A DNA stretch of 62,000 nt from Bolinopsis microptera (taxonomy: Eukaryota > Ctenophora > Tentaculata > Lobata > Bolinopsidae). The translations under genes were made by a program, and so were the position numbers. Every line of letters starts with the position of its first letter. Within the stretch, counting starts at the first letter, position 1. Below are positions 9,495 through 62,000 of this stretch, one piece after another. The stretch spans positions 1,818,501-1,880,500 of the forward strand of contig NC_087073.1 of NCBI RefSeq assembly GCF_026151205.1, given 5' to 3'. The notes below the pieces were generated by a model. The model had not been told where the DNA came from, did not search any database, and saw only the letters and a list, made by a program, of their open reading frames with translations.

Positions 9495-10826
9495 TCAATT
9501 TGGACATTTAAAAGGTTTCTCTCCCGAGTGAGTCTTCATATGCACATCGAGTTTTGATTTCTGAACTGCTGCATACGAACAATCTGGACATTTAAACGGT
9601 TTATCTCCCGAGTGAATCTTCAAATGTTCTTTGAGGCTTGATTTATAAGCTGATGCATATGAACAATCTGGGCAATTAAATGGTTTTTCTCCTGAATGAG
9701 TCTTCAAATGTACTTTGAGGCTTGATTTATTAGCTGTTGCATACGAACAATCTGGACATTTATATGGTTTATCTCCCCAATGAGTCATCAAATGTACTTT
9801 GAGGTGTGATTTATAAGCTGTTGCATGCGAACAATCTGGACATTTAAATGGTTTCTCTACAGAGTGAGTCTTCAAATGTACTTTGAGGTTTGATTTAAAA
9901 GCTGATGCATATGAACAATCTGGGCAATTAAATGGTTTCTCTCCCGAGTGAGTCTTCAGATGTACTTTGAGGTTTCCTTTATTAGCTGTTGCATACGAAC
10001 AATCTGGACATTTATATGGTTTATCTCCCGAGTGAGTCTTCAAATGTACTTTGAGGTATGCTTTATTAGCTGTTGCATACGAACAATCTGGACATTTATA
10101 TGGTTTCTCTCCCGAGTGAGTCTTCAAATGTACTTTGAGGTTTGATTTATTAGCTGTTGCATACGAACAATCTGGACATTTATATGGTTTCACTACAGAG
10201 TGAGTCTTCAAATGTACTCTTAGGCTTGATTTATGAGCTGCTGCATACGAACAATTTGGGAACAGGCATTTAAATGGTTTCTCTCCAGAGTGAGTTGATA
10301 TGTTATATTGAAGAATATTACGGATCTTTTCTTGAGGATCGGAATATTCCAGAGGACTACTAATTATATTATCACTATCATTAAATTGAAATACATCAAA
10401 TTTTGGTCTTTTTCGTTTGCCGGAGTTTTCTACATGATCTTTGATATGTTTAATGAAACTACTCTCCTCCAGAATCTTTTCCCCACAAACTGAACAGAGA
10501 AAGCCTCCAAACATGCCATTAATTTCACTCTGCTCCGTTTTTACTTCTGATTTAACAACATCGCATTTATTTTGAACACAACAACCATCTTGTTCTGTAA
10601 CATGACCATTGTTATGAACAGAACCTCCAGCAAACTCATGTAACAAACTGTGCTCCTCATCTTGTACTTGCAGGTCAGGCTTATAATGACGTTCCCTGAT
10701 ATGTTCAAGGAAATACTTCTCGTAGAAAAGTTGTTCACCACATGCTGGACACAGAAAACCTCCAGTTTTGCTTCTCAAATCCTCTTCTTCGGTTTTTACT
10801 TCGCTTTTAATGTGAGGACATGACAT
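9495..10826 (-). CDS. C2H2 zinc-finger protein, 9-finger tandem array (unit 1)
   Basis: 443 residues, probably a nuclear DNA-binding regulator. N-terminus: a C2H2-like finger (C26, C29, H42, H47), four SUMO-consensus psi-K-x-E sites (IKSE, VKTE twice, VKSE at residues 6-13 and 91-98), a second finger (C111, C114, H127, H131), and a basic GKRKRPK nuclear-localisation candidate at 136-142. From residue 187 there are nine 28-residue fingers joined by SGEKP/SGDKP linkers. Fingers are almost identical except at helix positions -1, 2, 3 and occasionally 6, the DNA-contact positions. The protein stops just after the first Cys-Pro of a tenth finger. The ATG sits right behind a good acceptor (ACTCTTCAG), so an untranslated 5' exon is likely. 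Paralogue at 20038-21873. It resembles lineage-specific C2H2 expansions; no orthologue recognised. Confidence 0.85.
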   Translation of the reverse strand: MSCPHIKSEVKTEEEDLRSKTGGFLCPACGEQLFYEKYFLEHIRERHYKPDLQVQDEEHSLLHEFAGGSVHNNGHVTEQDGCCVQNKCDVVKSEVKTEQSEINGMFGGFLCSVCGEKILEESSFIKHIKDHVENSGKRKRPKFDVFQFNDSDNIISSPLEYSDPQEKIRNILQYNISTHSGEKPFKCLFPNCSYAAAHKSSLRVHLKTHSVVKPYKCPDCSYATANKSNLKVHLKTHSGEKPYKCPDCSYATANKAYLKVHLKTHSGDKPYKCPDCSYATANKGNLKVHLKTHSGEKPFNCPDCSYASAFKSNLKVHLKTHSVEKPFKCPDCSHATAYKSHLKVHLMTHWGDKPYKCPDCSYATANKSSLKVHLKTHSGEKPFNCPDCSYASAYKSSLKEHLKIHSGDKPFKCPDCSYAAVQKSKLDVHMKTHSGEKPFKCPN

Positions 10827-13230: not shown

Positions 13231-13980
13231 CTGCATATTTAGGATATTATAGGAAGTTTGATATGGTTTATAATAGGAAGTTTATTTAGAATGAATATAA
13301 TGAAATAGTTTGCCCCTGAACTCTTGTTGAATGGTTCAGATAAAACAAAAAAGGATGAAAAATGCTTAATTTTGACGAATATTGGGTTCAGGTTTTTATC
13401 ATTTTATTAATAAAACAATTGATTGTCGAAGTATTGATAGGAGCAACTGATTGATAAGGCAAAAATAAATGCAGCAAAGGTACACAGACCAGACTAGAAG
13501 TCATAGTTTTAAACTAATTACAACACTACAAATCTATTAAATTTATTGAGAATTATGTAATGTAACGTGATGGAAATATTTTAAATGGGCATATCTAATC
13601 CTGTCCAAACCCAGGATGCACTACATGAAGAATTCGTTGTAACTTTGTTTGAAAATCATTAATAGCACATGATTCTACCATACCTTGCATTGTGGGACAA
13701 AACGACCACCTTTGGAAAATTAAGGCTACGTCCTGTGTTGGTAATCAGTATATGGCACTCCGGCCGGTTGAATAAATCAAAACAAAAATTAAATAGTTTT
13801 AATACTTTCAACACTACTATATAACAAATAATTTTAGGTCCCAATGTCAAAGCGATAGAAGAGACTATGACGTGACCGTTTGTATCCTAAGCAACGCATC
13901 TACTTCCTGGGCTACAGTATTGACTTCGCCATTTTCTCCTCCCTCACCGCCATTTTCTCCTCCCTCTTCCTCACATCACT

Positions 13981-15363
13981 ATGGATCTGAATTCTGTTAC
14001 CAATGTTTTAAACTCGTTTTCATTAAATGAGCTGAAAGCTCTCAAGGCCAGTGTTGAGAATGTCATGAAACTTAAGAGAAATTCTGTTAAATGCGAGGAC
14101 TTCTTGGAGTTGCATTCAGATTTTGTTCAGAACAAGAGTGTTCAACATGGCACGTTGATGTCTGAACTTGAAACACTTATGGCCAAGCAAACTGCTGTGA
14201 AAACTGCCACAAAGTGGCTCACTTCGACTGGAGAAGAATATGTATGGTCTTCCTCAAATGGACACACCACGACTAAGGAGCCAATCGATATTTTAAATTA
14301 TCCTGGGATATCAGAGCTTATGCATGATATCAACTCCAAGTTTGGCTGCAAGCTAAACTCATGCCTAGCAAGCATGTACAAGTCTGGTTCTTGTGCAACT
14401 AGGTACCACAACGACGACGAGGTGTCTCTTGACCAGTCGCAAGGTATTTATGTAGTTTCATTTGGAGCTGAGAGGACCATCGACATAATTCCAGAAAATG
14501 GGGATAAGCGATGTAACAGTAAATGCTATATCACCCCAAAGGACTGTAGTTTGTATATTATGAAACCGGGGTGTCAGGAATATTGTCTTCACAAGGTTCG
14601 TGCAGAGAGCTCAGTTAAGGGGACTCGGTATAGCTTATCTTTTCGCTGCCAGATACCGAAGACAGATACAAATGTAGTCAAGGAGCAGATTGCCCGCACT
14701 ACAATTCCTATGCCGCCCACCACCACCTCAACACCAACCCTTTACTACCGAAATACTCCAAGAAAACCGAAGAGCAGGAAAACCACTGTCCTGTTTGGTA
14801 CGTCAATGACAAAATTCGTACGGACAAATAAGTTGGGATTCCGGGGAAGGAAAGTAATCAATGTGTCTCAAAGTGGTGCAAAAATTAGAGACATCACTGA
14901 AAACATTCATAATTTTCATAAAACTCATGCAGCTGCAGAAGCTGACGATATTGAAAAAATTATATTGAGTGTTGGTACAAATGACATTAAACATTCTAAG
15001 TATGGGGTTCAGTTCCTTAGGAAGTATCTTACTGAATTAATTGACACCACTAAGAAGTTATTTCCCGCTGCAATTATAATTATCCAATGTTGTCTTCCTA
15101 TTAAATGTTTATATTCCTACATAGCAAAGAATGTTCTAGATTTTAATAATCTACTTAAAGACTTATGCCTAAATAATAATTGCGTGTTCTTAGACTGTTT
15201 CTCAGTCTTTTTAACTCGAGACTTTAGATCATGTAATGAACTTCTATACCATGATTGGCTTCATCTCAACATCAGAGGAGTAGGTTTACTGTCCACTTGG
15301 CTTAAGTTTGTTGTAAACGAACACAGTTTTGACAGGGTTGTAAATAATCTTCTGGGAATTTAA
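13981..15363 (+). CDS. LINE ORF1: AlkB-like 2OG-Fe(II) dioxygenase fused to SGNH/GDSL esterase
   Basis: 460 residues. Residues ~1-80: helical, possibly coiled. Residues ~85-225: AlkB-like fold. YHNDDE gives the HxD iron ligands H143 and D145. H204 (in CLHKV, after a MKPG turn) is the third ligand. RYSLSFR gives R216 and R222 with the same six-residue spacing as the 2-oxoglutarate arginine pair of AlkB. Residues 226-268: Pro/Thr-rich basic linker. Residues ~268-445: SGNH hydrolase with block I LFGTSM (S275), block III GTND (332-335) and block V HDWLH (D425, H428), so the catalytic triad is present. Esterase domains in ORF1 are documented for CR1-type LINEs. The AlkB domain could repair or demethylate alkylated element RNA or cDNA, but that is inference. 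The frame is fully open, implying recent activity. Confidence 0.85.
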   Translation: MDLNSVTNVLNSFSLNELKALKASVENVMKLKRNSVKCEDFLELHSDFVQNKSVQHGTLMSELETLMAKQTAVKTATKWLTSTGEEYVWSSSNGHTTTKEPIDILNYPGISELMHDINSKFGCKLNSCLASMYKSGSCATRYHNDDEVSLDQSQGIYVVSFGAERTIDIIPENGDKRCNSKCYITPKDCSLYIMKPGCQEYCLHKVRAESSVKGTRYSLSFRCQIPKTDTNVVKEQIARTTIPMPPTTTSTPTLYYRNTPRKPKSRKTTVLFGTSMTKFVRTNKLGFRGRKVINVSQSGAKIRDITENIHNFHKTHAAAEADDIEKIILSVGTNDIKHSKYGVQFLRKYLTELIDTTKKLFPAAIIIIQCCLPIKCLYSYIAKNVLDFNNLLKDLCLNNNCVFLDCFSVFLTRDFRSCNELLYHDWLHLNIRGVGLLSTWLKFVVNEHSFDRVVNNLLGI

Positions 15364-15460
15364 ATCTTTGATCTTTTCTTCCATTTAATATTTTGATTAA
15401 GACGTTGCGCCTAAAATTAAAACTCAAACAAATCTCTGATTTAATCTTTTTCTCAATTTT

Positions 15461-18400
15461 ATGCCTCCCATTTCAGGTACATTCGGTCACTGTCCATTTT
15501 CCAATATGTTAGACAATGAATCGTTTAGACTTAGAATAGGTCTTTTTGCATGCAAAAGGCCTCGTACACAGTCAAGAAATGCACATATACATATCAACAC
15601 GTTTATACCTAACAAAATTTACACATTTAAGTCTCCATACACCCCACACATCAACTACAATTATCATAATCATATGTTTCTCTTCTATTCTCTCATCATG
15701 ACTTACTTTCTCCCAATTCTTCTCTCCACGGTTAGGTCCATGAACACCGTATTCCCCCTAGATTCTAATATTCATTCCTCTCTACTCCTTGACAGCCCAC
15801 GTTATCTTATACCATTTCTTGCTTGCTCCCACATCAAACTTTTCTTTGTAATTATCTCCTCATGGTTTATAAGAAATGTTCTTCTCCCTGGTAAGATGAA
15901 TAGAGTCAAGTATTCCAGCCGCCTCAGGCGTCTAGTCTCTTTATTCATTCTTTGGGTTTTCTCTCTTAACTTTCTTTTGATAACTCTTGTTAATCCTTCT
16001 ATGCTTAATCCAGGTCCCAACTCCCTATCTGTACTCTACCAAAATGTCCAAGGTCTCATTCCTTTCAGTAACCTAAGCTCCTCCCATCCCCTTCTTGATG
16101 GTAATAAGATTTCCGAACTTCAATCCTTTGCTAACATAGAGCAGCCTGACATAATTGCCCTAAATGAGACTTGGCTCAAAAAATCTATTTCTAGCAACGA
16201 AATCTTTCCTTCTTCTCAATATGAAATCTTCCGCAATGACCGCACGAGAAAGACTCATCCTCAAGATCCTAATAACCCTAAAAAGTTTAGGGAAAATGGA
16301 GGTGGTGTTCTTTTGGCTGTTCGGTCTGATCTCGACGCCACTACAACCCGACTACCAGTTAGCCTAGGTGCAGAAATGCTTGCCGTTAAAATTTCTTTTC
16401 CTAACAAAGAGAGTATTGTAATCTGTACTTGTTATAGAGTAGGAACTCTTGGGTTACCTAATCATGATGTCATAGTTAGTTATATTCGCAAGCTAGTTTC
16501 CAAAAAGAATCCCTCTAAAATCTATGTTATTGGTGATTTTAATCTCCCCCATACAGACTGGCTATCTTCATCCAGTACCGTACCTATTGAGCAATCCTTC
16601 ATAGATTCTTTCAGTGATCTTTCTCTCTCCCAGTTGATCACATCACCCACCCATAAAAGTGGTAATACATTAGACATTCTTCTCAGTAATTATGATAACA
16701 CAATCGATAACTTGAATGTCTGTGATCCTCATTCCGTGTGCAAATCTGATCATTTTCCTGTCACTTTTTCAATTAAAAGCTCCTTTTCCCGTAAGAAAAC
16801 TCCTAAACGTAAAATCTATAATTTTAAGAAAGCAAACTGGGACATGATTAATCGTGAATTATGCTCGATTAATTGGCAAGTCCTAGAATGCCTAGATCCT
16901 GATTCGTCTTGGAAGTTAGTTAAAGACTGCATTATGAATTTAGTTGATATACATATTCCTAAAGTAATTATTAAATCAGAGTTCTAACCCCCGTGGTTCG
17001 ATAGTGAACTTTTTTCTTCATGCCGTAAAAAAGATAGACTCAGAGCTAAATTTAAAATTTCTGGTTCTATTTCTGATGAGTTAAAGTTTGTTACTAGCCG
17101 TAAAGATTTTAAGAGGCTCTCATCAGCCAAAATAAGAGATAATCTTTTTAATAGTGATGATCCAGCGCTTATAACTAAGAAGTTTTGGTCACATGTTAAG
17201 TATAAATCTAACTCCTGCCGTATTCCTAATTGTGTTAGTTATTCTGGACAGCTTCGGTTCAATCCCAAAGATCAAGCTGAACTTTTCAATTCTTTCTTTT
17301 ATAACCAGTTTTCGGATCCTTCACTTTATGACACTGACATCTCCTATGTCAATGATGTTGATTTTGATATTGACTTCGATCATCGGGATGTTCGTAAGCT
17401 TCTTTCAAATATTAATTCAAATAAAGCCCAGGGACCAGATGGCATACACGGTAAAATTCTAAAAAATTGTTCCTTAGGTTTAGCTTACCCTCTAACATGC
17501 ATTTTTCGTGGATCCTACAACAGCGGCTACATTCCACAAGAATGGAAACTTGCAAATGTTGTCCCAATATTTAAGAAAGGTAAGAAAAGTGAGGTTGAAA
17601 ACTATAGACCAATATCCCTTACTTGTTTAGTCATGAAAGTTTTTGAGCGCATTGTTAAACGTAAACTGCTTTCTTTGACAAGTACCCTTCTTGATCCCAG
17701 GCAGCATGGTTTTCTAGAGCACAAGTCATGCACAACCAATATGGTTGATTTTTGTGATAGCCTGGCATTGTCTCTTAACGAAAACATTATCAATCATGTT
17801 GTGTATTTTGATTTTGCTAAGGCATTTGATTCTGTAAATCATGATATCCTTCTTCATAAGCTAAAGACCTTATATAACATTGATGGTACACTTCTCAAAT
17901 TTCTTACCAATTACCTTCAAGGCCGTTACCAAAGAGTGGTTATTGGTAATGAGATGTCATCTACCCTTTCAGTTAATTCTGGTGTCCCCCAGGGCTCTAT
18001 CCTTGGTCCCTTACTTTTTGTATTGTTTATCAATGATATTCCTCTTGGCCTTTCGGATAATACTGATATTGTTTTGTATGCCGATGATACAAAAATCTGG
18101 CGTAAAATACATTCATCTTCTGATAATACCAATTTACAAATGGATATAGACTATCTCTCTGACTGGGCACTTAGAAACAAAATGCGATTCCATCCAGCAA
18201 AATGTAAAGTGCTTATTGTTTCAGGAAAACCATCTTTATCTCCTCCATTCGCATATAATCTTGATGGCTCTCCTCTTGTGTATGTAGAGTTAGAAAAAGA
18301 TCTTGGAGTCGATGTTACTCCTAAGCTCAGTTGGAATAGTCAGTGCGACAGAATTTATACTAAGGCCTGCCAACAACTTGGTATGGTCAGAAGAGATGGC

Positions 18401-18976
18401 CATATTGTCATTGATCAGAAACGTCGTCGGGCGCTTTACCTCTCCCTGGTTCGTAGCCAATTCGAAAATTGTTCCATAATCTGGCGCCCTTGTAATAAAT
18501 CACTTAGTGATAAATTAGAAAGTCTCCAAAAGAGAGCTATTAAATGGATTCTGTCTGAAGAGGGCCGCAGTTATCCACCTGAGCAATATGTCAAAAAGTG
18601 CAAGCTTGTCGACATTCTCCCTTTGTCTCAAAAGTTTGACTTGAATGATCTTATTTTTTTCCACAAAGTTCTGAACAATTTAATTCCTGTATGGCTGCCT
18701 CACTATCTCACTTTATATCAGGGCACTTCTCGACTAAGACGTTGCCACCTCGACAGTCTGTCTATTGTGTCATCAATTTTACCTAAGTTAAGTCAGAATT
18801 CACACACCTTATGTACCTCAAATAGCCCACTGGCAAAATCATTTTTCTACAGAACTCATATACTGTGGAATGGACTCCCTTTACAGGTAAGACAGATTGT
18901 GTCTACAAGTGTTTTCAAAGCTGAGGTCACTAAGCATCTATGGAAATGTTTATTGGATAGTGAAACAACAGCCTAG
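15461..18976 (+). pseudogene. LINE ORF2: APE endonuclease + reverse transcriptase, one nonsense codon
   Basis: One continuous frame interrupted only by TAA at 16985-16987. N-terminal ~180 residues contain hydrophobic stretches and end in LNPGP (NPGP at residues 183-186), resembling a decayed 2A-like motif. Residues ~190-435: apurinic-type endonuclease with YQNVQG, NETW (E236), GDFNLP (D359, N361) and SDHFPV (D430, H431). After the stop the frame resumes with PPWFDSEL and runs through RT motifs: KAQGPDG, NYRPISL, FDFAKAFDSV, GVPQGSILGP and YADD (codons at 18077-18088). It then reaches the C-terminal WNGLP region of CR1/L2-type elements. The ATG at 15461 is the first in frame. With the stop the endonuclease and RT are separated, so this copy is probably immobile unless helped in trans. 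Confidence 0.9.
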
Positions 18977-19485
18977 CCTAGTCTCTTTGCTCCCCATATT
19001 ATTATTATTTTTGTTTTATTAATTTTTTATCTACCTTCCTATACTTTCAACATCATATCACACTTCACCCGCACACCTCACACATTAATGACCATATCAG
19101 ACCTGTATCTAATGTATCTGGAATTTGACGTATTGAAATACCAATTTTGACTATATATCCACAGTTATTCACCATGGATTTGTTTGTTATTAAATAGTTT
19201 TTCATAAATTTTTGGATTTAGATTAATTCGATGTAATGGGTCCAAGTTACTGCGGACATAGTTCACTATGTGTTTACCGTGTTTGGGTGCCCATCATATT
19301 TTACAGATGGGGGCGATATTTTGAACGATTCTATTTTATATTCATCTATTGCTGTACTCTGTAAAATTTGAAAAGTATTTAATAAAAAAAAAAAATCCTG
19401 TCATCACTGCTCCAGTAATAAATATTATGTGTTAATTACAATCAATATATTAGTAAATTAAAATCTTTCGTCCTGGCTGGTTTTG

Positions 19486-20037: not shown

Positions 20038-21873
20038 TCAATTTGGACATTTAAAAGGTTTCTCTCCCGAGTGAGTCTTCATATGTACATTGAGGTTTGA
20101 TTTCCGAGCTGTTGCATACGAACAATCTGGACATTTAAACGGTTTATCTCCCGAGTGAATCTTCAAATGTACTTTGAGGTCTGATTTAAAAGCTGATGCA
20201 TATGAACAATCTGGGCAATTAAATGGTTTCTCTCCCGAGTGTGTCTTCAGATGTTCTTTGAGGTTACCTTTATAAGCTGAAGCATACGAACAATCTGGAC
20301 AATTAAATGGCTTATCTCCAGAGTGAATCTGAAAATGATTTTGTAGGCTTGATTTCCGAGATGTTGCATACGAACAATCTGGACATTTGAACGGTTTATC
20401 TCCCGAGTGAATCTTCAAATGTACTTTGAGGTCTGATTTCCGAGCTGTTGTATACGAACAATCTGGACATTTAAACGGTTTATCTCCCGAGTGAATCTTC
20501 AAATGCACCTTGAGGTATGCTTTATAAGCTGAAGCATACGAACAATCTGGGCATTTAAATGATTTCTCTACAGAGTGAGTCTTCAGATGTACTTTGAGGT
20601 CTGATTTCCGAGCTGTTGCATATGAACAAACTGGACATTTAAATGGTTTCTCTCCCGAGTGAGTCTTCAAATGTACTATGAGGCTTGATTTAAAAGCTGA
20701 AGCATACGAACAGTCTGGGCATTTAAATGGTTTCTCTACTGAGTGAGTCTTCAGATGTACTTTGAGGTGTGATTTATTAGCTGTTGCATACGAACAATCT
20801 GGACATTTATATGGTTTCTCTTCTGAGTGAGTCTTCAGATGTACTTTGAGGTGTGATTTATTAGCTGTTGCATACGAACAATCTGGACATTTATATGGTT
20901 TCTCTCCTGAGTGAGTCTTCAGATGTACTTTGAGGTGTGATTTATAAGCTGTTGCATACGAACAATCTGGGCAATTAAATGGTTTCTCTCCCGAATGAGT
21001 CTTCAAATGTTCTTTGAGGTTTGATTTATTAGCTGTTGCATACAAACAATCTGGACATTTCTATGGTTTCTCTACAGAGTGAGTCTTCAAATGTTCTTTG
21101 AGGTTTGATTTATTGGCTGTTGCATACAAACAATCTGGGCATTTAAATGGTTTCTCTCCCGAATGAGTCTTCATATGTACTTTGAGGCTTGATTTATAAG
21201 CTGATGCATACGAACAATCTGGACATTTATATGGTTTATCTCCCGAGTGAGTCTTAAAATGTACTCTGAGGTTTGATTTATTAGCTGCTGCATACGAACA
21301 ATCTGGGAACAGGCATTTAAATGGTTTTTCTCCAGAGTGAGTTGTTATGTTATATTGAATAATATTACGGATCTTTTCTTGAGGATCGGAATATTCCAGA
21401 GGACTACTCATTATATTATCACTATCATTAAATTTAAATACATCAAATTTTGGTCTTTTTCGTTTGCCGGAGTTTTCTACATGATTTTTGATATGTTCAA
21501 TGAAACTATTCTCCTCCTGAATCTTTTCCCCACAAACTGAACAGAGAAAGCCTCCAAACATGACGTTAATTTCACTCTGCTCCGTTTTTACTTCTGATTT
21601 AACAACATCGCATTTATTTTGAACACAACAACCATCTTGTTCTGTAACATGACCATTGTTATGAACAGAACCTCCAGAAAACTCATGTAACAAACTGTGC
21701 TCCTCATCTTGTACTCGTAGGTCAGGCTTATAATGACGTTCCCTGATATGTTCAAGGAAATACTTCTCGTAGAAAAGTTGTTCACCACATGCTGGACACA
21801 GAAAACCTCCAGTTTTGTTTCTCAAATCCTCTTCTTCGGTTTTTACTTCGCTTTTAATGTGAGGACATGACAT
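20038..21873 (-). pseudogene. C2H2 zinc-finger gene, 15-finger array, interrupted by a nonsense codon (unit 2)
   Basis: Paralogue of the gene at 9495-10826, with near-identical N-terminal fingers, SUMO-type sites and acceptor-adjacent ATG. The frame is 504 bases longer, exactly six 84-nt fingers. A TAG at 21063-21061 replaces the Tyr codon of a KPYKC linker and truncates the product to 270 residues with three array fingers. The other twelve fingers remain open in the same frame down to 20038. The stop could mean a pseudogene or a truncated protein still carrying both N-terminal fingers. An apparent start just after the stop is a TTG, not a real initiation codon. Finger contact residues (for example ARKSD, AFKSD, AYKGN) differ from gene 1, so the arrays have diverged in predicted specificity. 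Confidence 0.85.
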
Positions 21874-26920: not shown

Positions 26921-27072
26921 GAATTGGCAGAGATAAAGATAGCTAATGAGGTAATGATGAGAGCGCGGCAGGAGGCTGAGTTAGCAAACGAGAGAGGAAT
27001 TGGCAGAGATAAAGATAGCTAATGAGGTAATGATGAGAGCGCGGCAGGAGGCTGAGCTAGCAAACGAAGAGT
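26921..27072 (+). repeat. 76-bp tandem duplication over the gag start
   Basis: The sequence GAATTGGCAGAGATAAAGAT and its continuation occur twice, at 26921 and 26997. The period of 76 is not a multiple of three, so the first copy reads into a TAA. The duplication therefore cuts the gag frame off from any start codon further upstream. Confidence 0.9.
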
Positions 27073-28109
27073 TAAGGACTCAATATGATGAATTGAGGCA
27101 GCAGGGAGCACAGCTAAGAAGAGATGGATTCAGAGAGGGTAAGCTAGAAGCTAGGCAGGAGAAGGAGACCGAAAAGAGGAGAATCAGAGAAGTGAACAGA
27201 GCAGCGGGTAAGAAATACCCATTAATGAAACCTCGGTTGTTTGTGCTGGGGAAACACAGCTTTAGAACCTTCCTGAGCGGGTTTAAAATATTTGCCAATG
27301 CTGCGGACATCTTGGATGAAGACTTGGTGGACATGATAATGACGTACTTGGACCCCAAGGCACAGAGGAGAGTGGAGACCCTACGATTAACCCGGGACGA
27401 AAAGAGAAATGTAGAGGCGAGTTTGGAGAGGATGACAGAGGTGCTATGTGAGGCGCATTCAAAGGTGGAGCGCAGGAAGAGACTTTTTGAGATGCGTCAG
27501 AAAGAGGAAGAGACCATTTCGGATTTTGCAGCTAGAGTCACTGGCATGGCAGATGCGGCATATGCACCGGAGGAGGAGGAGATCAAGAAGACCATCAGAC
27601 TAGATGTATTTACAGCGGGGGTACTAAAGGATGAAATCGGGATCGAGTTAATCAAGTCAGAATTGGAAGATTTTGAGGCCGCGCTAAAGAGGGCAGTTAA
27701 GTTGGATGGGATCCTGGCGAGTCGTAACCCTAGACCAATGAAGAATGAGGAGGAACTTTTGTTCCAAATCGAGGAGGATATAGAGATGGATGAGGGAGTG
27801 ATAAACCGAGTGATGGAAAAGAACCGGCCGAGAAGAGACATCGGTGCTTGTTACACCTGTGGACAGCATGGACATTTCGCAAAGGAATGTAGAAAGCCCC
27901 CTACTTGTTATGGATGCGGGAGACAGAGTCATGTTGCAATGGATTGTACGCAAGGACACGGTGGCCGAGGAGGTCTTCAAAGAGGGCAAGATCCTCTTGT
28001 ACAGAAAGCTATGGACGAAAGAAATTTATCATTAGTAGCAGGTAGAAGAACTGATAAGGCATGGGAGGAGACCAACCACCTTTGTCGACAGAGGGGATGG
28101 ATTACTTGA
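27030..28109 (+). CDS. Gag-like protein with two CCHC zinc knuckles
   Basis: 359 residues from the first in-frame ATG (ATGATG at 27030, within the second copy of the 76-bp duplication). N-terminus: highly charged, probable coiled coil (about residues 1-65). Middle (about 70-240): helical region with FLSGFKIFANA and RVETLRL, resembling a capsid domain of Ty3-type gag. C-terminus: two nucleocapsid knuckles, CYTCGQHGHFAKEC (residues 274-287) and CYGCGRQSHVAMDC (293-306), followed by a Gly/Arg-rich tail. It would package element RNA into particles. The frame is open and ends at 28109 with no pol continuing from it. Confidence 0.8.
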   Translation: MMRARQEAELANEELRTQYDELRQQGAQLRRDGFREGKLEARQEKETEKRRIREVNRAAGKKYPLMKPRLFVLGKHSFRTFLSGFKIFANAADILDEDLVDMIMTYLDPKAQRRVETLRLTRDEKRNVEASLERMTEVLCEAHSKVERRKRLFEMRQKEEETISDFAARVTGMADAAYAPEEEEIKKTIRLDVFTAGVLKDEIGIELIKSELEDFEAALKRAVKLDGILASRNPRPMKNEEELLFQIEEDIEMDEGVINRVMEKNRPRRDIGACYTCGQHGHFAKECRKPPTCYGCGRQSHVAMDCTQGHGGRGGLQRGQDPLVQKAMDERNLSLVAGRRTDKAWEETNHLCRQRGWIT

Positions 28110-38783: not shown

Positions 38784-40471
38784 CTAGGGGCAGAAATGGA
38801 GCATATGATTCTCGTCCTCAATGAATAGCTGGTTGGTGTTAAGCTCGCAATAGTTGCAGGTCCTTTCATCAATTGGAGTTTTGTCATATCTCCCCCTTTC
38901 AATTCTAAGGTGATGAGAACTGGACCGAATCTGTGTGGTTGCCCTTCTGTCCTGAAAAGACCTAGCATAGGTTAGATATGGCTCCCATGCAAATTCTGTT
39001 TTGACTTCACTGTAGAATGATAGCTTTCTAGAATCTTTCACAAGAGAACCCCAGGAATCGCGGAATTGTTTTTTCAGGTTCTCTGTGATTAATTCAGGGC
39101 TGCAGGAGTCTGCGAGTGAGGTTGCGTTCAACAGCGACGATGAATTCCTTTCAAGAAGGTCGATGTTGTTGAATGATTTGATGATTGATTCGATGCCTAC
39201 AAACCATGACAATTTGAGGTTAATCTGCTCAGTCATTGCAGCTTTGACTAGTTGTGTAGAGGGGAGGCTCATAACTCTTTTGAAATATTTAGTACTCAGT
39301 TTCAACATTTCAATAATGATTGGGTATGAGCCAGTTTCTCCCCAGGCTGTAGCATTGACTGCCCTTCTGTTTATACCAAGAAGGTATTTTAGGTGTCGTA
39401 GATGCACTTGCTCAAGTTGCTGTTTAGCGATGTGAGAGACCGCATGATCAAGATTGTGAAACTTGCTGAAGCTAGAGAGGACCTTATTGACGGTGGGTAG
39501 AACCGGGGCCCAAACTTGACAGCCGTAAAGTAGAATTGGCTTAACAAGGGTGTTAAATAATTTGTTAAGGCAGGATGCATCAACGAATCTCCGGTCTATA
39601 GTGCTTTTCAAGCTGAAGTAAGCTCCAAGTCCTTTTCGGTATAAAGAGTCAGTTGCTTGCCGAAATTTCCCTGTGCTGCTTATAATAATCCCAAGATAGC
39701 AGTAGCTGGAGACCATCTCGATATCTCTTTTGTGAATGGAAGGACGCCAATTTGGAATGTCTGGTCCTTTGCCATTGAAGACCATGAATTTGGTTTTGGA
39801 GATATTGATTTCCAGACCCCATTCGTTACAGTAGTCCCCAATAATCGTAAGCAACTTTTGGAGAGACTCAGGATCTAGGGCAAGTATAACTAGATCATCA
39901 GCCCACGCTAGGTGAGTCACTGAAAGTGACAGTTCGCAGTAGCTTCGTTAAGGAGGTCAGAAAGCTTTTTAAAGTAAACTTTGAAAAACTCAGGGCTAAG
40001 TGGGTGTCCTTGTTCAGTTCCTTTAAGGATCTTGAATGCTTCACTGATTTTACCATTCATCTTGATATGACCCTCTGATTTGCTGTACATGTCTTTGATG
40101 ATGTCGTAGTAGCCACCATTGACACCATAGCAGGCTAGTTTGAACATGAGAGCTTGTCTGCAGACTAGATCGAAAGCTTTGCGAAGATCAATGAATACTG
40201 CATATATTTTATTTTTGACTTTCTTGTATTTTTCTATGGTGGACATCAGCGTAAATATATGGTCATTGCATTGACTTCCTTTGGTAAAGCCTGCTTGGTT
40301 GGGTGGATCAGGATGTGAGATTTGGCGGTGATTAACGAGCCGAGATAGCAGCATCGTAGAGAGCAGTTTTCCGATACAGCTACAGACTGCTATTGCTCTA
40401 TAGTTGTCAGGGTTCCTGATGCACCCTTTTTTGTGAATTGCACCCTTTTTTGTGTGATGATGTGATTTCAT
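38784..40471 (-). pseudogene. Degenerate LINE reverse transcriptase (5'-truncated)
   Basis: Two overlapping minus-strand frames joined by a frameshift near 39920. First: NYRAIAVCSCIGKLL, QAGFTKGSQC, FIDLRKAFD and a GTEQGHPLSP motif. Second: WADDLVILA (RT catalytic ADD), INISKTKFMVF, YLGIIIS, LLYGCQVWAP, and a C-terminal zinc-like TCNYC...ENHMLHFCP. The endonuclease domain is missing. It represents a LINE clade different from the AlkB-bearing element. Confidence 0.8.
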
Positions 40472-58131: not shown

Positions 58132-59085
58132 CTGAATCGAAAGGGAAACTCTTATTGTGGAGTCAGATTTACAATAGAAAGTGCTACAGTTACAGGATTA
58201 GAGACACATTGTTAAGAGCAAACTTTACACGCAGGATGAGTAACTCATGATGTACTTGGCGAGGTTAAGTTACTTTATTATGTTGTCAGATGTATAATTA
58301 TTATAAGTAACATTATGTGTTGTATATTATGTTACAGTATGTGTGGTGTATACTTTATCTGTAATAACTAAGTATATATCATTGACAGCCTAACTACTGC
58401 ACTTGTAAGGTGTTGCCAATAAAGTCATCCGTTAAATTGCTCTTCCTAGCTTTTTCATCCGTATAAGTTGTAAAAAGTAACGCACGGATTAAATATCTCG
58501 GCCCGGGCGCGGGCATCATTAATTAACATCAGACCTATAAATACGAGTTTCAGATATTTCTGATTCAGGAATCCTAAAAACGTGTCTTTTCCTCAAACGA
58601 AATGATGCAAATATATACATAGTCTTTATATAATATATAGGTTATATATATCACTACGCAGTGTGTATTATTATGAGTTACTATTACAGCTAGCCGTGAT
58701 GCACAGTGTAGACTCAAGTTATAAAGTGTATAGAACCACATGATAATAACATTTTGTGTACATACTTGGTTTACATTCTCTATCAGATACTCTCATTTCT
58801 GGTATGTTGTACAATGCTACTAGTTACCATGGTTACTCCACTGTCTACCTTACAATAACACCTAAAATCATTGAAATATGCATCGTATATTAGCACTAAT
58901 TAATAATGTAAATAAATAAATTAATTATGTCTGAGTTAGTATTATGTAGATGGAAGGCAGTTTTTTAGACCACCAACTCAATAAACGATCTGTATTCCAG
59001 AAGAGCAATGATGGAGTGATTGCGTGTGTAGATATTCCAACAGTGGTGGCCGGGTAATGTAAAGCGGGAAAATAATACTTTATCC
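58132..59085. other. Probable Csk intron, AT-rich
   Basis: No exon could be identified on the minus strand. Nothing else recognised. Confidence 0.45.
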
Positions 59086-62000
59086 TTCACTCTCTATTAG
59101 GGTGCGTGAGTTCACACTCTCTATTAGGGTGTGTGAGTTCACACTCTCTATTAGGGTGTGTGAGTTCACACTCTCTATTAGGATGTGTGAGTTCACACTC
59201 TCTATTAGGGTGTGTGAGTTCACACTCTCTATTAAGGTGCGTGAGTTCACACTCTCTATTAGGGTGTGTGAGTTCACACTCTCTGTTAGGGTGCGTGAGT
59301 TCACACTCTCTATTAGGGTGTGTGAGTTCACACTCTCTATTAAGGTGCGTGAGTTCACACTCTCTATTAGGGTGTGTGAGTTCACACTCTCTATTAGGGT
59401 GCGTGAGTTCACACTCTCTGTTAGGGTGTGTGAGTTCACACTCTCTATTAGGGTGTGTGAGTTCACACTCTCTGTTAGGCTGTGTGAGTTCACACTCTCT
59501 ATTAGGGTGTGTGAGTTCACACTCTCTATTAGAGTGTGAGGGTTCACACTCTCTATTAGGGTGCGTGAGTTCACACTCTCTATTAGGGTGTGTGAGTTCA
59601 CACTCTCTATTAGGGTGTGTGAGTTCACACTCTCTATTAGGGTGTGTGAGTTCACACTCTCTATTAGGGTGTGTGAGTTCACACTCTCTATTAGGGTGTG
59701 TGAGTTCACACTTCACACTCTCTATTAGGGTGTGTGAGTTCACACTCTCTATTAGGGTGTGTGAGTTCACACTTCACACTCTCTATTAGGGTGTGTGAGT
59801 TCACACTCTCTATTAGGGTGTGTGAGTTCACACTCTCTATTAGGGTGTGTGAGTTCACACTCTCTATTAGGGTGTGTGAGTTCACACTTCACACTCTCTA
59901 TTAGGGTGTGTGAGTTCACACTCTCTATTAGGGTGTGTGAGTTCACACTCTCTATTAGGGTGTGTGAGTTCACACTCTCTATTAGGGTGTGTGAGTTCAC
60001 ACTCTCTATTAGGGTGTGTGAGTTCACACTTCACACTCTCTATTAGGGTGTGTGAGTTCACACTCTCTATTAGGGTGCGTGAGTTCACACTCTCTATTAG
60101 GGTGTGTGAGTTCACACTCTCTATTAGGGTGCGTGAGTTCACACTCTCTATTAGGGTGTGTGAGTTCACACTCTCTATTAGGGTGTGTGAGTTCACACTC
60201 TCTATTAGGGTGCGTGAGTTCACACTCTCTATTAGGGTGTGTGAGTTCACACTCTCTATTAGGGTGTGTGAGTTCACACTCTCTATTAGGGTGCGTGAGT
60301 TCACACTCTCTATTAGGGTGTGTGAGTTCACACTCTCTATTAGGGTGTGTGAGTTCACACTCTCTATTAGGGTGTGTGGGTTCACACTCTCTATTAGAGT
60401 GTGAGGGTTCACACTCTCTATTAGGGTGTGTGAGTTCACACTCTCTATTAGGGTGTGTGAGTTCACACTCTCTATTAGGGTGTGTGAGTTCACACTCTCT
60501 ATTAGGGTGTGTGAGTTCACACTCTCTATTAGGGTGTGTGAGTTCACACTCTCTATTAGGGTGTGTGAGTTCACACTTCACACTCTCTATTAGGGTGTGT
60601 GAGTTCACACTCTCTATTAGGGTGTGTGAGTTCACACTTCACACTCTCTATTAGGGTGTGTGAGTTCACACTCTCTATTAATAGGGTGTGTGAGTTCACA
60701 CTCTCTATTAGGGTGTGTGAGTTCACACTCTCTATTAGGGTGTGTGAGTTCACACTTCACACTCTCTATTAGGGTGTGTGAGTTCACACTCTCTATTAGG
60801 GTGTGTGAGTTCACACTCTCTATTAGGGTGTGTGAGTTCACACTCTCTATTAGGGTGTGTGAGTTCACACTCTCTATTAGGGTGTGTGAGTTCACACTTC
60901 ACACTCTCTATTAGGGTGTGTGAGTTCACACTCTCTATTAGGGTGTGTGAGTTCACACTCTCTATTAGGGTGTGAGTTCACACTCTCTATTAGGGTGTGT
61001 GAGTTCACACTCTCTATTAGGGTGCGTGAGTTCACACTCTCTATTAGGGTGCGTGAGTTCACAATCTCTATTAGGGTGCGTGAGTTCACACTCTCTATTA
61101 GGGTGCGTGAGTTCACACTCTCTTTAGGGTGTGTGAGTTCACACTCTATTAGGGTGTGTGAGTTCACACTCTCTATTAGAGTGTGTGAGTTCACACTCTC
61201 TATTAGGGTGTGTGAGTTCACACTCTCTGTTACGGTGTGTGAGTTCACACTCTCTATTAGGGTGTGTGAGTTCACACTCTCTATTAGGGTGTGTCAGTTC
61301 ACACTCTCTATTAGGGTGTGTGAGTTCACACTCTCTATTAGGGTGTGTCAGTTCACACTCTCTGTTAGGGTGTGTGAGTTCACACTCTCTGTTAGGGTGT
61401 GTGAGTTCACACTCTCTATTAGGGTGTGTCAGTTCACACTCTCTATTAGGGTGTGTGAGTTCACACTCTCTATTAGGGTGTGTCAGTTCACACTCTCTGT
61501 TAGGGTGTGTCAGTTCACACTCTCTGTTAGGGTGTGTGAGTTCACACTCTCTATTAGGGTGTGTGAGTTCACACTCTCTATTAGGGTGTGTGAGTTCACA
61601 CTCTCTATTAGGGTGCGTGAGTTCACACTCTCTGTTAGGGTGTGTCAGTTCACACTCTCTATTAGGGTGTGTGAGTTCACACTCTCTATTAGGGTGTGTC
61701 AGTTCACACTCTCTGTTACGGTGTGTGAGTTCACACTCTCTATTAGGGTGTGTGAGTTCACACTCTCTATTAGGGTGTGTGAGTTCACACTCTCTATTAG
61801 GGTGTGTCAGTTCACACTCTCTATTAGGGTGTGTGAGTTCACACTCTCTATTAGGGTGTGTCAGTTCACACTCTCTGTTAGGGTGTGTGAGTTCACACTC
61901 TCTATTAGGGTGTGTGAGTTCACACTCTCTATTAGGGTGCGTGAGTTCACACTCTCTATTAGGGTGTGTGAGTTCACACTCTCTATTAGGGTGTGTGAGT
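59086..62000. repeat. 27-bp satellite/minisatellite, continues past window end
   Basis: About 105 units of a 27-bp motif (TTCACACTCTCTATTAGGG then TGTGTGAG). Each unit contains the hairpin GTGTGA-GT-TCACAC and a single TTAGGG. Variants: GTGCGTGAG, GTGTCAG (only after ~61290), TCTGTTAGG, and a 34-bp unit with an extra TTCACAC. The 34-bp units occur at about 59710, 59770, 59886, 60030 and again at 60576, 60637, 60752, 60896, so a ~0.5-kb block is duplicated at an 866-bp offset. With a period divisible by three, all frames stay open and produce spurious ORFs on both strands. Confidence 0.97.

Follow-up and report, generated by a model that had tools for sequence, protein, structure and literature searches.

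An AlkB-like dioxygenase fused to an SGNH hydrolase in ORF1 of a LINE from the ctenophore Bolinopsis microptera

Introduction

Can a retrotransposon carry an enzyme that would repair, or un-mark, its own RNA template? A locus of the ctenophore Bolinopsis microptera raises this question. In the window analysed here, a stretch of 62,000 nucleotides (NCBI RefSeq assembly GCF_026151205.1, contig NC_087073.1, positions 1,818,501 to 1,880,500 of the forward strand; positions below count from its first letter), a long interspersed nuclear element (LINE) has a first open reading frame (ORF1) whose product almost certainly joins an ALKBH2/3-like Fe(II)/2-oxoglutarate (2OG) dioxygenase to an SGNH hydrolase. 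Esterase-type ORF1s of CR1/L2 LINEs were reportedly described by Kapitonov and Jurka in 2003. An original prediction, made from the letters of the window, had proposed that here an AlkB domain precedes the esterase and may protect the element's own RNA or cDNA.

Retrotransposons copy RNA end to end, so that methylation of the Watson-Crick face directly endangers them, and sequencing laboratories treat RNA with AlkB to pass such methyl blocks (PMC12140624, PMC11417395; statements on papers cited by PMC number refer to the excerpts available). If the element encodes the same trick, template repair would become a testable part of retrotransposition.

ORF1 joins an AlkB-type dioxygenase to an SGNH hydrolase

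ORF1 (13981-15363, forward strand) runs through 460 codons without an internal stop, as the original prediction had it, and every residue named there stands where it had been placed (H143, D145, H204, R216, R222, S275, GTND at 332-335, D425 and H428). The proposed AlkB domain also held up, with significant matches in both sequence profile and fold and with ALKBH2 and ALKBH3 on top. Searched alone with phmmer against Protein Data Bank (PDB) sequences, the window protein matched ALKBH3 (8jnr) over residues 107-226 (E 7.1e-8). When the window protein was aligned with 42 of 95 database relatives (alignment A1, 43 members), the resulting profile matched ALKBH3 (E 3.9e-18) and ALKBH2 (E 4.3e-16) among solved structures, and Pfam 2OG-FeII_Oxy_2 (PF13532) matched 37 of the 43 members. 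The sole dioxygenase match of the lone protein in Pfam is sub-threshold (PF03171, E 0.0048), so that support for the AlkB assignment comes from the PDB sequence match, from the family and from the AlphaFold2 (AF2) model. NCBIfam gave nothing for three of the four proteins tested and, for the fourth (P0028), only a partial alkb match far under the cut-off; two relatives are labelled 'alkylated DNA repair dioxygenase AlkB' by one source (JGI). In the AF2 model residues 1-35 are helical, and the linker between the two domains has a predicted local distance difference test score (pLDDT) below 50 at residues 229-259.

With human ALKBH3 and ALKBH2 the window protein shares the fold and the elements HxDDE, SFGAxR, M-x4-Q, H and RxxxxxR. 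It differs from them in its fusion to an SGNH domain within a mobile element, in having S131 and S218 for Asn residues of ALKBH3, and in that position 146, the first Asp of DDE, varies among relatives (D in only 37 of 90). Sequence and model together make the AlkB part lean towards the ALKBH2/ALKBH3 side, that is, repair of the 1-methyladenosine/3-methylcytidine (m1A/m3C) type, rather than towards erasure of N6-methyladenosine (m6A).

The esterase half was likewise recovered as proposed: the window protein matches PF13472 (E 1.1e-11), and Pfam Lipase_GDSL_2 matches all 43 members of A1. The nearest solved sequence is the ORF1 esterase of the zebrafish LINE ZfL2-1 (4c1b; E 1.1e-5), matched over residues 270-438 at E 3.3e-5 in the search that gave ALKBH3 and at E 5.8e-13 by the A1 profile. 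Opposite H191 and S228 of ZfL2-1, two reported transposon-specific positions, the window protein has S330 and Q369; H and S, respectively, are absent there from every alignment row. Because these positions are not shared, the esterase looks separately acquired.

Three SGNH-sized relatives of 224-252 residues (P0101, P0102 and P0103) lie on contigs of 11-43 kb, and two of them match Pfam OSK, which is also touched by 7 of the 43 A1 members. A link to the Oskar-type SGNH domain is possible.

Conservation of both active sites across diverse relatives

At E <= 1e-3, 95 database proteins match the window protein, at 26-95% identity and some of them partially; a profile search at E <= 1e-5 gave 102 proteins, 7 of them new and outside the alignment, tree and distance test described here. 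The alignment has 96 rows (P0001-P0096 minus P0078, plus the genomic relative L051), and counts refer to rows with a letter at the position in question.

H143, D145 and E147 are each invariant (90/90), H204 is present in 94 of 94 rows, R216 in 94 of 95 and R222 in 95 of 95; the two metal-binding histidines, the aspartate and both arginines occur together in 89 of 90. On the hydrolase side, S275 (93/95), N334 (93/93) and H428 (90/91) are jointly kept in 87 of 89 rows. D425 is less conserved (74/90), and in 12 rows the six residues ahead of the His include no Asp. Both predicted active sites are thus conserved in a diverse family. Pairwise distances in the AlkB and SGNH parts are correlated (r 0.85 over 85 rows, with 11 of the 96 omitted as too gappy), and none of 999 permutations reached as high a value. 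That the distances of the two domains rise together is as expected for one old AlkB-SGNH fusion.

The AlkB site has two oddities. The window protein has serines, S131 and S218, opposite N179 and N271 of ALKBH3, which we take to be 2OG contacts. Serine also prevails among relatives, both at position 131 (55 of 90 rows; T in 17, N in 4) and at position 218 (74 of 95 rows; C in 19, N in 1). The second oddity is position 146, presumably the equivalent of D135 of AlkB, which is D in 37 rows, N in 19, G in 14, A in 10, S in 8 and another residue in 2. On a tree of 83 rows (13 of 96 omitted as too gappy) these states need 26 changes, against a mean of 43.9 after shuffling; the state is therefore partly inherited, yet it switches frequently. 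The two families found in this genome differ here, with D in family 1, to which the window copy belongs, and G in family 2.

In an engineered setting, AlkB D135S combined with the wild type broadens demethylation (PMC11417395). It could be imagined that this LINE lineage carries an ORF1 RNA/DNA demethylase, repairing or un-marking its own template, in which position 146 has been re-tuned repeatedly to host methyl marks in an RNA-methylation arms race; we regard this as doubtful. The adjacent position 144 varies across relatives too, and the changes at 146 may therefore reflect tolerance rather than retargeting. Were retargeting true, the states D, N, G, A and S would be natural counterparts of engineered AlkB D135S, and the family would offer a natural panel of demethylase variants, enzymes possibly differing in which methyl groups they remove among those that block reverse transcription.

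Outside the alignment, P0078 (706 residues; longest contig 59,550 bases) seemingly has two AlkB-like units ahead of one SGNH unit; a host gene and a nested element are both conceivable. Pattern searches for the family gave 39 matches in viral contigs, none of them confirmed, and 35 in prokaryote genome contigs, one of them confirmed. The latter, L052 from a bacterial metagenome-assembled genome, aligns to query residues 326-450 only, which is the esterase part.

ORF1 belongs to a multi-copy LINE

The predicted LINE setting proved right: ORF1 is followed by an ORF2 with an endonuclease and then a reverse transcriptase (RT), a non-long-terminal-repeat (non-LTR) layout, within a unit present in many copies (Table 1). 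BLASTN against 20 other fetched copies delimits one unit of 5.6 kb at 97.9-99.9% nucleotide identity, starting at 13793-13798 in 13 of 20 matches and ending at 19387-19396 in 19 of 20, and A-runs are present in the 3' ends of the copies examined. Intact copies exist: ORF1 (460 codons) and ORF2 (1171 codons) are both uninterrupted in 16 of the 20. The remaining four have an altered ORF1 start (L040), a broken ORF2 (L039), a shorter ORF2 of 1120 codons (L043) and an ORF2 split by about 3 kb and reaching past the fetched stretch (L034). Given the high identity of the copies, recent activity of the family is suggested. No convincing target-site duplication was seen in 20 flank pairs (the window and 19 of the 20 copies). 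Solved RTs of several kinds, R2, group II intron-type and LINE-1 among them, are matched by the RT part, which does not settle the LINE clade; the CR1/L2-like placement of the original prediction is putative.

Across the genome (264,652,675 bases in 232 contigs) there are at least 94 ORF1 matches, with 92 of 912 candidates scored. Twenty-six of them, the window copy included, are near full length and free of stops at 95-100% identity; decayed relatives at 37-44% identity with many stops also occur. The copies analysed further are the near-intact ones, with decayed and partial copies (L027-L030 included) set aside.

A second family repeats the arrangement. Among the matches listed, ORF1 relatives lie at 12 genomic places at 29% identity (10 without a stop) and at three more at 31% (all without a stop). 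At each of the 12, a family-2 ORF2 lies directly downstream on the same strand, and L051, one of them, has an AlkB-SGNH ORF1 followed by an ORF2 with endonuclease and RT. Between the two families, identity is 28% for ORF1 and 50% for ORF2.

Table 1. Features of the LINE in the window (residue numbers refer to the ORF1 protein).
Feature	Position	Strand	Basis
LINE (apurinic/apyrimidinic endonuclease (APE)-type non-LTR retrotransposon), near full-length; 3' end with AATAAA and A-run	13795..19390	+	20 other copies
5' untranslated region	13795..13980	+	copy borders
ORF1, AlkB-SGNH fusion, 460 residues	13981..15363	+	open frame
N-terminal helices H3-10 and H15-33 (residues 1-35), ahead of the AlkB fold	13981..14085	+	AF2 model
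AlkB-type 2OG-Fe(II) dioxygenase, residues 36-226	14086..14658	+	fold match from about residue 36
HNDDE, residues 143-147: metal ligands H143 and D145, plus E147	14407..14421	+	alignment columns
H204, third metal ligand	14590..14592	+	alignment column
RYSLSFR, residues 216-222 (RxxxxxR; 2OG/substrate arginines)	14626..14646	+	alignment columns
Disordered linker, residues 227-267, basic tract at its end	14659..14781	+	pLDDT, codon variation
SGNH hydrolase, residues 268-447 (S275, G299, GTND 332-335, D425, H428)	14782..15321	+	Pfam, profile, fold
ORF2, one in-frame stop at 16985-16987, frame then continuing	15461..18976	+	reading frame, copies
N-terminal extension of ORF2 with three hydrophobic stretches and, after them, NPGP (16007-16018)	15677..16018	+	hydropathy
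APE-type endonuclease	16082..16762	+	PF14529 (Exo_endo_phos_2) E 4.6e-13; PF03372 E 1.4e-7
RT, portion 3' of the stop	17633..18217	+	PF00078 (RVT_1) E 5.1e-24

Selection among copies

The metal ligands, whose loss would speak against a working dioxygenase, are retained: H143, D145 and H204, together with R216 and R222, are unchanged in all 25 near-intact genomic copies (26 minus L011), the set to which this check was confined, with truncated and decayed copies outside it. S275, N334, D425 and H428 are also unchanged in 25 of 25, one copy is altered at G299, and at least one differs at S220.

For the same 25 copies (300 pairs), the pairwise ratio of nonsynonymous to synonymous divergence (dN/dS) was 0.33 over the whole of ORF1. 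By part, it was 0.16 in residues 1-77, 0.19 in SGNH, 0.64 in AlkB and 1.02 in the linker. For AlkB, dS itself is low (0.016), and the ratio would, taken alone, be weak evidence of selection. Constraint on AlkB is therefore argued from conservation and from comparison with the linker: amino-acid variation affects 15 of 148 AlkB codons and 15 of 42 linker codons (226-267; Fisher P 0.0002).

Subfamilies A and B (five copies each) diverge by 1.0% at 14187-14586, compared with 2.3-4.2% for the remaining bins of ORF1, and dS in this region is 0.016 against about 0.05; in ORF2, A-B divergence is equally low or lower still in several bins. Conversion, template switching and synonymous constraint are candidate causes.

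Comparison with known elements

The C-terminal SGNH domain likens this protein to the Type IV (esterase) ORF1 of CR1/L2 LINEs such as ZfL2-1 (Schneider 2013, PMC3905857; Metcalfe and Casane 2014, PMC4120745), from which it differs in the AlkB fold ahead of the esterase. As both transposon-specific positions of ZfL2-1 are missing from its SGNH part, it is more than a Type IV ORF1 extended by one domain. Judged from sequence, this is a LINE ORF1 of new architecture. It would add to the five types in use (PMC4120745). AlkB is absent from Table 1 of the study of 448 Jockey-superfamily elements by Metcalfe and Casane (PMC4120745). No description of AlkB in a LINE appeared among the literature matches listed, which comprised titles and starts of abstracts with Repbase reports and most subscription journals outside them, so that absence from print is unproven.

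A retrotransposon-borne AlkB-type domain has a counterpart in an orchid (Phalaenopsis) Ty3/Gypsy element with a 2OG-dependent dioxygenase (2-ODD)/AlkB ORF, for which RNA binding and demethylase activity were demonstrated in vitro (PMC9289625). That element is of LTR type with the domain in an extra ORF, whereas here it is fused within ORF1 of a non-LTR element with highly diverged relatives. Plant RNA viruses with AlkB domains offer another selfish, RNA-using parallel (Bratlie 2005, PMC544882), and viral replicases, e.g., that of Grapevine virus T, match the ORF1 model; the viral domain sits in a replicase polyprotein, however, and reverse transcription is not involved. Retrotransposons with captured DNA methyltransferases (PMC5890265) have also taken up a nucleic-acid modification enzyme, but those enzymes add methyl groups to DNA, and the AlkB type removes them.

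Proposed function and alternatives

Repair of the template, either ahead of target-primed reverse transcription or in its course, is the likeliest reading, although we hold it tentatively. The ORF1 protein would bind the element's own RNA through the AlkB domain and the basic linker; the dioxygenase would strip Watson-Crick-face methyls (m1A, m3C, perhaps 1-methylguanosine), whether derived from damage or from the host, that block reverse transcription; the SGNH domain would keep the ribonucleoprotein (RNP) at a lipid surface, lipid binding having been proposed as the role of the ZfL2-1 esterase; and the ORF2 protein would copy the cleaned RNA at the target site. Protection of the element's own RNA or cDNA, as originally suggested, is plausible as a predicted function. 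Over 85 rows the basic tract has a median of 5 K/R per 14 residues, although family 2 has just 1. Esterase ORF1s in Repbase were described in 2013 as having no RNA recognition motif (RRM) or other structural RNA-binding domain, and their route into RNPs was left open (PMC3905857). We infer that the AlkB fold, which is of a nucleic-acid-binding kind, may take the place of this missing domain; if true, this would bear on how an esterase-type ORF1 holds nucleic acid.

Several alternatives were considered. The AlkB domain could be an anti-epitranscriptomic eraser that takes m6A or another host-written regulatory mark off the element's RNA, a role also proposed for the orchid Gypsy element, but ALKBH2 and ALKBH3 score higher in both sequence and structure, which makes this somewhat unlikely. 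An ALKBH2-like action on new cDNA or the target site, as alkylation repair or removal of N6-methyladenine in DNA (6mA), seems unlikely considering that the best sequence score is to ALKBH3, an enzyme that acts on single-stranded DNA and RNA, and that ORF1 proteins are known for RNA packaging. It is also conceivable that the fold serves mainly as a surface for RNA or single-stranded DNA binding and chaperoning in place of an RRM, with catalysis secondary or lost. This would be in keeping with the replaced Asn residues, presumably 2OG contacts, and with the question that the Repbase authors left open about esterase ORF1s without a structural RNA-binding domain (PMC3905857). For binding alone, however, not all five residues would be needed, and the metal ligands and both arginines stand in 89 of 90 rows, so we consider it rather unlikely.

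More remote is a protein or small-molecule hydroxylase with no nucleic-acid role: many 2OG oxygenases do have protein substrates, but the nearest relatives, ALKBH2 and ALKBH3, work on nucleic acids, and the setting is an RNP protein; this we think very improbable. A chance neighbour, that is, a host fusion gene beside LINE debris, was rejected: 20 copies at other sites carry the unit with ORF1 and ORF2 together, and the second family repeats the layout.

Other observations in the element and the window

In both families ORF2 has strongly hydrophobic stretches followed by LVNPxxxNPGP ahead of the endonuclease (residues 42-65 and 145-163 of the L051 ORF2). For the window, the stretches in Table 1 were measured on copy L031 and transferred by codon count, and NPGP was read directly in the window sequence. 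The stretches would fit membrane-associated assembly, without proving it. NPGP is reminiscent of 2A peptides, although their D(V/I)Ex portion is missing (2A signal sequences: PMC4981915).

Elsewhere in the window, related C2H2-type zinc-finger arrays flank the LINE on the reverse strand (9495-10826 and 20038-21873; best match 92.8% over 1629 bases). At 27000-28109 (forward strand) lies a Gag-like ORF that has a CCHC zinc knuckle and matches PNMA weakly, and a repetitive stretch at 59080-60654 has several open frames on both strands. A further LINE-like RT, in two pieces, is found at 38784-40471 on the reverse strand, one piece being 26% identical to the family-2 RT over 161 residues.
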